Origin: Brachybacterium huguangmaarense
Lineage (GTDB): Bacteria > Actinomycetota > Actinomycetes > Actinomycetales > Dermabacteraceae
Assembly: GCF_025725725.1 (NCBI RefSeq)
Contig: NZ_CP107020.1
Coordinates: forward strand, 1,364,001 to 1,428,000
Reading direction: 5' to 3'
DNA length: 64,000 nt
Below, one piece after another: positions 17,938-21,481 of this stretch. The translations under genes and the position numbers were made by a program. Under the pieces are notes generated by a model. That model was not told the DNA's origin and did no database searches. It saw only the letters and a list, made by a program, of their open reading frames with translations. Within the stretch, counting starts at the first letter, position 1. Each line of letters begins with the position of its first letter.

Positions 17938-19109
17938 CGCACTCTCCCGGCGTCCATCCCGAGGCGCCGGGCGAGCCCGGGCCACGCCGGCCCGGCCGTC
18001 ACCGGACCGTGCAGGTCGAGCGCCGTGCGCGCCCGCAGTCGCCCGGCCTCGTCCCGCTCGAGACATGCGACGTGCTCGAGCGCGCGCCGCCCCTCCCGGC
18101 GCCCGAGGTGGAGGACGACGTCGAGGGCGCTCGCCGCCTGGCTCCCCAGGGCCAGGGGATCGAGGCCGCCGAGCACGCCGAGCGCCTCGAGCCGGGCCGG
18201 CACGTCGACGGCGCGGTTGGCATGGACCGTGCCGCAGCCGCCCTCGTGGCCCGTGTTGAGTGCCTGCAGCAGCTCGCGCACCTCGGCGCCGCGGCACTCG
18301 CCCACCACGATGCGGTCCGGGCGCATGCGCAGGCACTCGCGCACGAGGGCGACGAGGTCGACGCCGCCCGCTCCCTCGGTGTTCGCGTGGCGCGCCTGGA
18401 GGTGCACCACATGGGGGTGCTCGGGGTCGAGCTCGTGCGCGTCCTCGACGACGACGATCCGCTCGCTCGCGGGCGCGGCGGACAGCATCGCGCCGAGCAC
18501 CGTGGTCTTGCCGGTCCCCGTGCCCCCGCTGACGAGGAAGGCGACGCGCCGGGCCACGATCCGTTCGAGCACCTCTCGTGCGAAGGGCGTGAGGGAGCCG
18601 CTGCGCTCGAGCCCGGCGAGCGTGAGACGGGCGGCGGCGGGCCGCCGCAGCGAGATGAGGGCCCCGCCCGTCGACAGCGGCGGGAGCACGGCGTGCAGCC
18701 GCGTGCCGTCGGGCAGATGCGCGTCGGCGCACGGCGAGGCGTCGTCCAGGCGCCGCCCTCCCGCCGTCGCGAGGCGCACGGCGAGCGCCCGCGCCTCGCC
18801 GGGGCCGAGGCGGACCGCGGTGGGGTGCAGCCCGCTCGCGTCGTCGACCCACACCGCGCCGTCGGCGTTGACCAGGATGTCCGTGGCGCCGGGCACGGCG
18901 AGCTCCTGGAGCGGGCCGAGCCCCTGCACGTGATCGCGCACGGCGACGGTCAGGCGCAGCAGCTCCGCGGCGCCGATGACCCTGCCCTCCCGGTGCAGGA
19001 GGCGCGCCACCCGCGGGACGTCGACCTCGCCCGGCGCGGCCACGAGATCCTCGCGCACCCGTTCGAGCAGGGAGGCCGACACGGCGGCCGCGGCCGCCCG
19101 GGAGGTCAT
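17934..19109 (-). CDS. Tad secretion ATPase (TadA/CpaF family)
   Basis: Cytoplasmic hexameric ATPase that powers Tad pilus or protein secretion, 391 residues. Visible features in order: the N-terminal FIST-like segment GLGPLQELAVPGATDILVNADG; Walker A SGGTGTGKTTVLGA (about residues 189-202); the Asp-box IVVVEDAHELDP; the Walker B-like RMRPDRIVVGECRGAEV; and the His box NTGHEGGCGTVHAN. All are intact, so the enzyme should be active. It overlaps the ssd stop and the following secretion gene by 4 nt each. Confidence 0.93.
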   Translation of the reverse strand: MTSRAAAAAVSASLLERVREDLVAAPGEVDVPRVARLLHREGRVIGAAELLRLTVAVRDHVQGLGPLQELAVPGATDILVNADGAVWVDDASGLHPTAVRLGPGEARALAVRLATAGGRRLDDASPCADAHLPDGTRLHAVLPPLSTGGALISLRRPAAARLTLAGLERSGSLTPFAREVLERIVARRVAFLVSGGTGTGKTTVLGAMLSAAPASERIVVVEDAHELDPEHPHVVHLQARHANTEGAGGVDLVALVRECLRMRPDRIVVGECRGAEVRELLQALNTGHEGGCGTVHANRAVDVPARLEALGVLGGLDPLALGSQAASALDVVLHLGRREGRRALEHVACLERDEAGRLRARTALDLHGPVTAGPAWPGLARRLGMDAGRVR

Positions 19110-20215
19110 CGTCCCTCTCCCGCGTCGGCGGCGAGCCGGTCGAGCAGCCGTCTGCAGGCGGCGTCGGCTCCCCGCCGTCGCACGTCGAGCAGCGGCACGA
19201 CCCCCGCGGCCGCGTCCCGGAACGCCCCGCTCGTCCGCAGCCCGAGACGCTCGGCCACGTCTCCGGGCGACAGCGGACCGGTGCGCCGCACGAGCAGGTG
19301 CACCCGCCCGCGTCGCAGGCCCCAGCCGTGCAGGCGGCGGGCTGCCGCGCGGACGGCATGGTCCGTCGCGGGCACGACCAGCACGACATGGTCGAGCAGG
19401 GGGAGGACGGCCTCGACGGTGCCGGTCCCGACGTCCACCACGACCGTGCCGTCGAGCGGGGCGAGAGCGGCGACGGCCGCCACGGCCTGCTCGGGCGTGG
19501 GCAGCGCGGCCTCGCGCGCGACGAGCACGTGCACGCCGTCGACCACGGGCAGCCCGTCCCGCAGAGCCCCGCCGTCGTCCCCGCCCAGGCCCCCGACGTC
19601 CTCCCACCGCGCCCCCGGCATGCCCGCGGCCTCGACGAGCACGTCGAGGCCGCCGCCGAGCGGGTCGGCGTCGACCAGCACCGCGGACGAGCCGGATCGC
19701 GCCGCGGCCCCCGCGAGACGGGCGGCGAGGCTCGACGCGCCGGCGCCGCCGCACCCGCCGACCACGCCGATCACGAGGCCGCGGGAGGTGCGGCGCACGC
19801 TCGCGGCCAGCAGGTCGAGCAGCCGGGCGGAGTCGGCCGGCAGTCTCACGACCGCGCGCACCCCGCCCTCGAGGCACGCCCGCCAGTGCTCCTCGCCGAT
19901 GTCGCCGTCGGGGGCGAGCGCGATCACGGTGCCGGCGGGCCGGGTCGCTCCCCGCCGGGCGCTCCGCCGCGCGAGCACGGCGACGGAGCCCAGGGCGACG
20001 CCGGGCCCGGGATCGTGCGGCGCGGCGTCCACGAGACGGGCGCCGAGCGCGCCGACATGGTCGGCGGCGAGCTGACGCAGGGCGTCCGGTCCGCCGAGCC
20101 AGGAGACGACGCCCGGTTCGGCCGAGGGGAACACCGAGGCGGGACGCGAGGACGCCGCGGGCCAGGACGCCGGCGAGGTCCGGGACGGCGGGGGAGCGAT
20201 AGCAGAACGGGTCAT
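19106..20215 (-). CDS. CpaE/Ssd-like MinD-family protein of the Tad locus
   Basis: 369-residue protein of the septum-site-determining protein (Ssd)/CpaE-like family found beside Tad operons in actinobacteria; it is thought to position the secretion machine or influence septation. The MinD-like domain begins GLVIGVVGGCGGAGASSLAARLA. The deviant Walker A lacks the usual GKT lysine (GAGAS), a trait shared with mycobacterial Ssd, so ATP use is doubtful. Further motifs are VLVDADPLGGGLDVLV and VVDVGTGTVEA. It is the first gene of the operon; GACGAT lies 6 nt before the ATG, suggesting a leaderless transcript. Confidence 0.85.
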   Translation of the reverse strand: MTRSAIAPPPSRTSPASWPAASSRPASVFPSAEPGVVSWLGGPDALRQLAADHVGALGARLVDAAPHDPGPGVALGSVAVLARRSARRGATRPAGTVIALAPDGDIGEEHWRACLEGGVRAVVRLPADSARLLDLLAASVRRTSRGLVIGVVGGCGGAGASSLAARLAGAAARSGSSAVLVDADPLGGGLDVLVEAAGMPGARWEDVGGLGGDDGGALRDGLPVVDGVHVLVAREAALPTPEQAVAAVAALAPLDGTVVVDVGTGTVEAVLPLLDHVVLVVPATDHAVRAAARRLHGWGLRRGRVHLLVRRTGPLSPGDVAERLGLRTSGAFRDAAAGVVPLLDVRRRGADAACRRLLDRLAADAGEGR

Positions 20216-20324
20216 GTCGGCATCGTCGGTGCGCCGTGCCCGTCGGCACAGCCCCCGTCACCGCGCGGGGGATGATCCGGACGTGGGGAGGGGAGGCGGG
20301 CCCGGGCCGACCGCCGGCGGCCCC

Positions 20325-20353
20325 TTGTCGCCGCGGCAGGGCGGGAGTATGGT
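20325..20353 (+). promoter_or_regulatory. Sigma-A-type promoter of the orphan structured RNA
   Basis: A -35 TTGTCG (20325-20330) and a -10 TATGGT (20348-20353) are separated by exactly 17 bp. It faces a stretch with no coding gene on that strand. It is among the best -35/-10 pairs seen in the window, and transcription should begin near 20360. Confidence 0.6.
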
Positions 20354-20360
20354 GTGAGTC

Positions 20361-20525
20361 ACAACTCGATAAGGGACGCGGAACCCACGTGCGGGTGGTC
20401 TCCGTATCAGACCCGGCTCCCCGATGCCGACAGCATCCAGGCAGCCACGCATGAGATGCACGCCTGATACCGCGTCCCAGATCGAGTCAGACGGCGTCGC
20501 GGGTCACCGCGGCGCCGTTGTCTGT
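20361..20525 (+). ncRNA. Unassigned structured RNA (small RNA or orphan riboswitch)
   Basis: No protein-coding frame is credible here, but the sequence folds strongly by eye. Outer stem: CTCGAT (20365-20370) with ATCGAG (20481-20486), then a 2x2 internal loop, then GGGACGCGG (20373-20381) with CCGCGTCCC (20470-20478). Inside are ACCC/GGGT (20383-20396), GATGC/GCATC (20423-20437) and GCAT/ATGC (20449-20459). Two inner pairings exclude each other: GTATCAG (20404-20410) with CTGATAC (20464-20470), or CAGGC (20438-20442) with GCCTG (20462-20466). A good promoter precedes and a 12-bp hairpin follows. Pieces (GGAACCCAC, CCGACAGC) recall actinobacterial ydaO c-di-AMP riboswitches, but spacing differs and no gene follows on this strand. 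I cannot assign a known family. Confidence 0.5.
20491..20518 (+). terminator. Terminator-like hairpin after the structured RNA
   Basis: A 12-bp stem, ACGGCGTCGCGG paired with CCGCGGCGCCGT (one G-U), closes a GTCA loop and is followed by TGTCTGTG. It starts 5 nt after the RNA's outer stem, which would define an RNA of roughly 165 nt. The remaining stretch to the xth gene (20526-20680) contains only GC-rich inverted repeats that I cannot assign. Confidence 0.5.
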
Positions 20526-20680: not shown

Positions 20681-21481
20681 TCAGAGCTCGAGGTCGACGA
20701 TGACCGGCGCGTGGTCCGAGGCTCCCTTGCCCTTGCGCTCGTCACGGTCGATGCGGGCGTCGGTGACCGCGCGCTGGACGGCGGGGGAGCCGAGCAGGAA
20801 GTCGATGCGCATGCCTTCCTTCTTGGGGAAGCGCAGCGCCTGGTAGTCCCAGAAGGTGTAGACGCCCGGCCCCGGCGTGTAGGGGCGCGCGAGGTCGGCG
20901 TACCCGGCGTCGACGATCGCGCCGAACGCCTCCCGCTCGGGCGCGGTGACGTGGGTGCGGCCCTCGAAGAACCCCATGTCCCACACGTCGTCGTCCTGCG
21001 GGGCGACGTTGAAGTCGCCCGCGAAGATCGTGCGGGCCTCCGGGTCGGCCGCGAGCTCGCGCGCGCCCTCGGCCCGCACGGCCTCGAGCCAGCGCAGCTT
21101 GTAGGCGTAGTGCGGGTGGTCGATCTCGCGCCCGTTGGGCACGTACAGCGACCACACCCGCAGCCCGTCGCCGACGACGCCCGAGAGCATGCGGGCCTCG
21201 AGAACGCCGCCCTCCTCCTCGGGCCAGGTCGGCACGGCCTCCATCGCGACCCGCACGTCCTGGAGGCCCACGCGCGAGATCAGCCCCACGCCGTTCCACT
21301 GGTTCAGGCCGTGCACGGCCGTCTCGTAGCCCGCCGCGTGGATCGCCGTGAGATCCAGCTGCTCAGGGCGGGCCTTGAGCTCCTGGAGGGCGAGCACGTC
21401 CACGTCGTGGCGCTGCAGGAACGCGACGACGCGGTCGGTCCGGGCACGCAGGGAGTTGATGTTCCAGGTCGCGATGCGCAT
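20681..21481 (-). CDS. xth: Exodeoxyribonuclease III / AP endonuclease
   Basis: Mg-dependent exonuclease III-type AP endonuclease for base-excision repair, 266 residues. It starts MRIATWNINSLRARTDRV, the family's N-terminal catalytic Asn region, and contains LALQELKA (metal-binding Glu), SLYVPNGR, FAGDFNVAP (catalytic Asp-Asn) and GASDHAPVIVDL (final Asp-His). All active-site residues are present and the length is normal. TAGACT lies 6 nt before the ATG, so the message is probably leaderless. It runs convergent toward the structured RNA. Confidence 0.94.
   Translation of the reverse strand: MRIATWNINSLRARTDRVVAFLQRHDVDVLALQELKARPEQLDLTAIHAAGYETAVHGLNQWNGVGLISRVGLQDVRVAMEAVPTWPEEEGGVLEARMLSGVVGDGLRVWSLYVPNGREIDHPHYAYKLRWLEAVRAEGARELAADPEARTIFAGDFNVAPQDDDVWDMGFFEGRTHVTAPEREAFGAIVDAGYADLARPYTPGPGVYTFWDYQALRFPKKEGMRIDFLLGSPAVQRAVTDARIDRDERKGKGASDHAPVIVDLEL

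Follow-up and report, generated by a model that had tools for sequence, protein, structure and literature searches.

The RNA Ms1 (Rfam RF02566; Ms1 in Mycobacterium smegmatis, MTS2823 in Mycobacterium tuberculosis) binds the sigma-free core of RNA polymerase in M. smegmatis, M. tuberculosis and Streptomyces coelicolor; removal of the central bubble weakens this binding, and Ms1 regulates how much polymerase there is in stationary phase (PMC4191392, PMC9130861, PMC11077062). Ms1-type RNAs are generally ~230-300 nt long, the mycobacterial form being ~300 nt, and their genes are flanked by those of a HAD-IB hydrolase and an oxidoreductase (PMC9130861). The authors of that study relied on words in gene annotations, since homology searches by sequence and structure failed, and the Rfam model is limited to species close to mycobacteria (PMC9130861). 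Table 4 of PMC9130861 (146 genera as stated) lists no Brachybacterium, Devriesea or Dermabacter, and Brachybacterium is not named in the main text of that paper. For taxa without an Ms1 match, polymerase RNAs of another type have been suggested as a possibility (PMC11077062). CoRP of Corynebacterium, an abundant polymerase RNA of an actinobacterium, is unlike the RNA described here in its length (~500 nt) and in its place beside tRNA genes, and its authors did not find it outside Corynebacterium (PMC11077062).

In this study, a window of 64,000 nt from Brachybacterium huguangmaarense (family Dermabacteraceae) was analysed. A sequence-only reading of this DNA had noted an orphan structured RNA in a gap without genes, and had considered a free-standing small RNA, a decayed riboswitch related to the ydaO c-di-AMP riboswitch, or a new family. 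The fold, conservation, distribution and gene context of this RNA were assessed and compared with those of Ms1. Within the mostly open-access literature, exclusive of preprints, no report of Ms1 in Dermabacteraceae or of a shared covariance core was found (accessible text of PMC8539372 included).

Results

Location and boundaries of the RNA gene

The gap between ssd and xth measures 465 nt, from the start of ssd to the stop of xth, and contains the elements listed in Table 1. Direct reading of the letters agrees with the sequence-only description of the gap, of a promoter with a 17-nt spacer, of a closed multi-stem RNA with a two-part closing stem and of a 12-bp hairpin, all at the places given there. 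The ssd assignment scored slightly under the TIGR03815 cut-off (148.5 versus 154.45 bits). Covariance-model matches in the window cover 20358-20491 (model R1) and 20359-20490 (models R2 and R3).

Table 1. Coordinates of the predicted RNA gene, its elements and its neighbours in the window
Feature	Position	Strand	Basis or remark
-35 element TTGTCG	20325..20330	+	read directly
-10 element TATGGT	20348..20353	+	read directly; 17-nt spacer from -35
predicted Ms1-type RNA, ~165 nt	20360..20523	+	5' end placed by means of the -10 element and 3' end by means of the terminator hairpin
P0, 5' strand	20364..20370	+	pairs with 20481-20487; contains CTCGAT 20365-20370 / ATCGAG 20481-20486
P1, 5' strand, GGGACGCGG	20373..20381	+	pairs with CCGCGTCCC 20470-20478
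conserved internal loop, 5' side, AACCCA	20382..20387	+	invariant 17/17
P2, 5' strand, CGUGC	20388..20392	+	pairs with GCACG 20458-20462
P3 hairpin	20397..20413	+	consensus structure
P4/P5 arm with CGACA loop	20415..20446	+	consensus structure
P2, 3' strand, GCACG	20458..20462	+	consensus structure
conserved internal loop, 3' side, CCUGAUA	20463..20469	+	ACGCCTGAT invariant 17/17
P1 and P0, 3' strands	20470..20487	+	conserved structure
terminator-like hairpin, 12 bp	20491..20518	+	read directly, aligned, folded
ssd (CpaE homologue), divergent upstream neighbour	19106..20215	-	TIGR03815, E 2.6e-43
xth, exodeoxyribonuclease III, convergent downstream neighbour	20681..21481	-	TIGR00633, E 2.5e-68, 230.4 bits

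By BLAST, the element is present in further Brachybacterium genomes, and a MAFFT alignment of 17 genus members (L001-L017) showed that both the promoter block and the core are conserved. CTTG occupies the -35 place in all 17 rows as judged by eye, with one row shifted by one column, and the -10 block GTA..GT is invariant in 17/17. The alignment further shows CGGAACCCACGT, which is invariant, the pattern GGTC..CG.....GACC, a hairpin loop of the form CGAMA, ACGCCTGATnCCG and the terminator hairpin; the U tract that follows this hairpin is weak in the window and clear in the relatives L057 and L058. Sequence and conservation support the first option named by the sequence-only reading, a putative free-standing small RNA that has a promoter and a terminator of its own.

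The exact form of the -10 element in the window, TATGGT, is common to L002 and L003, and most of the 17 members have a TAGTGT-type element. The alignment can also be read such that P1 is drawn longer in the window, L002 and L003. Upstream of the ssd start, at 20266-20297 of the window, lies a block resembling GGGGATGA...GTGGGGAGG that can still be made out by eye where the RNA is missing, and it may therefore be a control site of ssd.

Conserved fold and covariation

The closed domain spans 20364-20487 on the plus strand. P0 and P1 close it, followed by the internal loop AACCCA/CCUGAU, which ranks among the best-conserved parts, by P2 and by a three-way junction formed with P3 and P4/P5. The plus strand is more stable than shuffled sequence (z = -4.34; 0/200 shuffles equally stable), and so is the complementary strand (z = -4.95; 0/200 shuffles); the strand was assigned from conservation, because stability alone fits both. 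The hand-drawn structure agrees with RNAalifold except for one pair.

The sequence-only reading had proposed an alignment of relatives as a check for compensatory changes, and such changes were indeed present: in the 17-member alignment, which was made without fitting to the structure, 12/34 pairs show two-sided changes, with at least one in each of the five helices. Shuffled versions gave a mean of 5.6 pairs (0/500 as high) and slid versions at most 4. When other genera of the family were added (37 matches, 34 distinct), 22/34 pairs showed two-sided changes, and among 69 sequences this rose to 30/34, with a covariation score of 0.535 versus 0.145 for shuffled and at most 0.096 for slid versions; both larger alignments, having been fitted to the model, lean towards it.

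Two mutually exclusive inner pairings, also described in the sequence-only reading, are real, namely, ACCC/GGGU (20383-20386/20393-20396) and CGUGC/GCACG (P2). The second was chosen because relatives keep it and it covaries in them, with GC changed to AU in 13 of the 34 distinct sequences; GGGU is not preserved in most of the 17 genus rows. For the window sequence itself, the minimum-energy fold (-86.2 kcal/mol) is 8 kcal/mol more stable than the conserved structure (-78.2 kcal/mol), and energy speaks to that extent against the chosen inner part. Across the 69 sequences, one P2 pair is unformed in 41, 34 lack the outer P3 pair and 34 lack one P4 pair. CGUGC/GCACG was also considered as a pseudoknot, a reading that was abandoned because this helix is nested inside P1. 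The Rfam Ms1 structure places additional pairs inside the internal loop, and by reading, the third position of UGA/UGG, opposite an invariant C, varies in distant members.

Distribution

In the genus, R1 matched 31 of 38 genomes, each at E 1e-23 or better, with Brachybacterium fresconis, Brachybacterium avium and Brachybacterium vulturis among the carriers; a second match in one genome (G002, E 0.04) was taken as noise. The family search with R1 also matched the genera g4, g5 and g6 (E 4.6e-8 to 3.7e-20), and one of eight family loci (L062) proved spurious by reading. At the order level, R1 matched 51/297 genomes, of which 34 lie outside the family; 33 of these were read and 27 accepted, the six others (L096, L097 and L099-L102) being spurious by sequence reading. 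R2, built from 44 sequences, matched 68/394 genomes of the class; 40 loci were read and 37 accepted. The three rejects (L134-L136) were spurious by reading, although L135 retains half of the core, and once they are dropped, the class matches, only part of which were read individually, spread over 20 families. R3, for which 69 sequences were used, none of them from the mycobacterial-type family f22, matched 23/396 genomes of the phylum, 13 of them outside the class; all 13 were read and 12 accepted, L183 being the spurious one. A second match in L116, on the other strand (E 0.0078), had been dropped before R3 by a lower E limit.

Rejected loci reach the E limits used, so that values of E ~1e-4 to 0.05 are unreliable in the order, class and phylum searches, and whole-genome searches at this scale used stricter filters by which members are missed. 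An exact DNA pattern search of contigs was too strict, returning two matches (L023 and L024) judged by reading to be chance, and a loose text-motif check over loci was discounted for its background of 61/365 shuffled loci. BLAST against phages returned nothing for the window RNA or for the RNA of the distant member L110. Against plasmids, the L110 RNA matched one record, the 11.85-Mb replicon of Nonomuraea gerenzanensis, an RNA from f37 matched none, and for the window RNA 46 records came up at E <= 10, each covering less than 80% of it.

An RNA best read as Ms1-type is present in Dermabacteraceae, and apparently, judging from the model matches, Ms1 also occurs outside the class Actinomycetes; both are new here, as are the single covarying core of all these RNAs and the clean gene loss described below. 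In seven of the out-of-class loci (L180, L182, L184 and L190-L193), P1 seems long by eye and no obvious terminator hairpin is seen directly behind the domain.

Relationship to Ms1

Rfam did not recognise the RNA of the window. At gathering scores, the whole window gave no match; the window RNA did not match Ms1, whose gathering score is 162 bits, and gave only matches at E ~1 or worse (HOTTIP, MIR1846, ncS54 and others). The covariance search suggested by the sequence-only reading therefore yielded no clean match for the RNA at issue. In a permissive scan, the L110 RNA was matched by Ms1 RF02566 from end to end (30.8 bits, E 2.1e-6 in a scan of 291 bases), well below the gathering score, in an alignment that includes ACCCACGCG and GCACGCUUGGUA. 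None of the members scanned reached that score. Run over 296 genomes, the Rfam Ms1 model matched 27, 17 of them above the cut-off, and outside f22 only G340, G504 and G548; the match in G340 coincides with the place found by R2. Because the Rfam model covers near-mycobacterial species only, the missing match is taken here as a limit of the model and not as a defining trait.

The search was also made in the converse direction. On 20 Ms1 loci (L143-L162) returned by Rfam's own Ms1 model, R3 matched 20/20, on the right strand and at the Rfam Ms1 place (E 1.8e-5 to 0.0056), and up to E = 1 these loci gave no further match; in L144, L153 and L155 the match covers only ~80 nt. R2 matched 19/20 weakly, together with one off-target place, and its sole f22 match in the class search was spurious. 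In the phylum search with its strict filters, R3 gave no match in several f22 genomes (for example G322, G349, G366, G383, G398, G421 and G431), and the Ms1 of those genomes was recovered by R3 in the locus-level search. The RNA of N. gerenzanensis scores 80 bits with R3, and Nonomuraea stands in the genus table of the Ms1 paper (PMC9130861), an agreement at the genus level.

Seven Ms1 sequences contain ACCCACG and, much later, GCACGC.TGGTA, so that the ACCCACG and GCACGC.TG blocks of the window RNA recur in the same order. The Ms1 layout, a stem with a conserved internal bubble and short hairpins near the ends, is matched in part: closing stem, conserved internal loop and 3' terminator hairpin are present in the window RNA. 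The window RNA is unlike Ms1 in its length (~165 versus ~300 nt), in the absence of a 5' hairpin and of a long inner arm, in its neighbours ssd and xth and in lying below Rfam detection. It is also shorter than scr3559/Str13, the S. coelicolor Ms1 (~230 nt; PMC9130861). Judged on the sequences, homology to Ms1 is supported through these intermediates and not directly from the window RNA. By descent, the RNA appears to belong with Ms1, which had not been among the candidates of the sequence-only reading, and the suggestion of a new family made there is not supported.

Neighbouring genes

Presence of a HAD-IB gene was scored by tblastn with a HAD-IB protein within the stretch fetched around each locus. 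It was found in 20/20 Ms1 loci and, among accepted loci, in 11/27 at the order level, 22/37 at the class level and 9/12 outside the class; the fetched stretch held no HAD in 16/27 and 15/37, respectively. This neighbour, present in many relatives, is absent from the window site, where ssd is found instead; elsewhere in this genome, the closest HAD match (C1:1259945) lies ~124 kb away and shows 29% identity. Among the seven loci L055-L061 (six loci from other genera of the family and the diverged genus member G008), one has HAD-IB, namely, Devriesea agamarum, in which the order is HAD-IB (TIGR01490), RNA, xth and an SDR oxidoreductase. Devriesea joins the xth context of the window to the published Ms1 context. 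In that locus (L055:3131-3149), the RNA model begins 17 nt after the HAD-IB stop codon, and hence the promoter of the Devriesea RNA is probably inside the HAD reading frame.

R3 matches were obtained in seven f37 genomes of the phylum sample, and at least three f37 genomes had none. From their Streptomyces-sized genomes, we infer that f37 is Streptomyces, which would link these matches to scr3559/Str13. HAD-IB adjoins the RNA in all five f37 loci read (four found via R3 and one via Rfam Ms1). Three of the f37 loci are on large contigs, at 47%, 56% and 28% of the length, and two of these three fit the published mid-chromosome position in Streptomyces. A site close to the replication origin, with transcription directed towards it, counts among the diagnostic traits of Ms1.

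A 6C RNA (RF01066) lies ~0.2-2.3 kb from the Ms1-type RNA in 3/18 and 12/20 loci scanned (e.g., L110:4483-4558, L106:4498-4572, L107:3565-3640 and L112:1625-1699); in 12 of the 15 cases the two RNAs are on opposite strands. The order Ms1, HAD-IB, 6C was seen in L108, L112, L117, L120 and L122.

Gene loss within Brachybacterium

Seven of the 38 genus genomes are without the RNA, with R3 giving nothing better than E 0.3 in them. In the six in which xth was found (L169-L174, three of them Brachybacterium kimchii, Brachybacterium sp. JHP9 and Brachybacterium sp. EF45031), ssd still adjoins xth, at a distance of 90-146 nt when a guessed ssd start is used. In carriers, this gap is 331-355 nt in the three measured (of seven tried) and 465 nt in the window. 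On comparison of these genomes, the absence of the RNA gene appears as a clean natural deletion in some Brachybacterium.

Discussion

The locus is best explained, with a probability of about 0.85 given the sequence comparisons, as a free-standing small RNA gene homologous to Ms1, with a role at RNA polymerase predicted from that kinship. By analogy with Mycobacterium and Streptomyces, the RNA would accumulate as growth slows, would bind the sigma-free polymerase core via the internal loop AACCCA/CCUGAUA, the counterpart of the central bubble of Ms1, and would thereby set the amount of usable polymerase.

An unlikely alternative is that the RNA is a distinct structured RNA of actinobacteria, trans-acting or bound to another protein, which has only the locus and some motifs in common with Ms1 and does not bind polymerase. 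Such a view could appeal to the fact that the Rfam gathering score is reached by no scanned member, that lengths vary up to twofold, that the fetched stretch holds no HAD in 31 of the 64 loci accepted at the order and class levels, and that the strict whole-genome search with R3 passes over several f22 genomes. It fits poorly with the recovery of 20/20 Ms1 genes at the locus level by a model that was never shown f22, with invariant blocks in the same order in seven Ms1 sequences, and with the HAD neighbour in Devriesea, in the f37 loci and in three quarters of the accepted out-of-class loci.

That the RNA is an ordinary 6S RNA (RF00013), mimicking a promoter on the housekeeping-sigma holoenzyme, is very improbable. 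Both are RNAs associated with polymerase (by prediction here) with a closing stem and a conserved internal loop, the size is similar (6S ~180 nt; PMC9130861), and no other 6S was found in the genus. 6S, however, is hairpin-like with a central bubble and binds the sigma holoenzyme, whereas the layout here is a three-way junction and Ms1 homologues bind the core without the primary sigma (PMC4191392, PMC11077062); moreover, RF00013 matched 0/38 genus genomes (E <= 0.01) against 5/14 control genomes.

Least probable of all is the ydaO-like aptamer or its relic considered by the sequence-only reading on the strength of two short look-alike blocks, GGAACCCAC and CCGACAGC: neither the window RNA nor the L110 RNA has a ydaO match in Rfam, the fold is different, the CCGACAGC block is the variable CGAMA loop of a covarying hairpin, a terminator-like hairpin follows with xth convergent behind it and no regulated gene downstream, and the RNA is not decaying, because its fold covaries across many families.

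Returning to the Ms1 homologue, a broader proposal is put forward tentatively, at somewhat less than even odds. Ms1 may be one RNA of ancient standing in the phylum Actinomycetota, and not an assortment of unlike RNAs brought together by their gene neighbourhood. Its working part would be a three-way junction of ~120 nt with an almost invariant asymmetric loop, ACCCACG / CGCYUGRU, the sequence of which the core polymerase would read, in place of a 6S-like promoter mimicry; the 165-nt Brachybacterium form would be near the minimal unit.

Conclusions

One covarying core links mycobacterial-type Ms1, Brachybacterium, Devriesea, many families of Actinomycetes and, apparently, other classes. This shared core narrows down the nucleotides whose part in polymerase binding could be tested, and the RNA of the window provides a compact form for structural work. 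The natural gene losses within one genus allow for a comparison of growth and polymerase levels.
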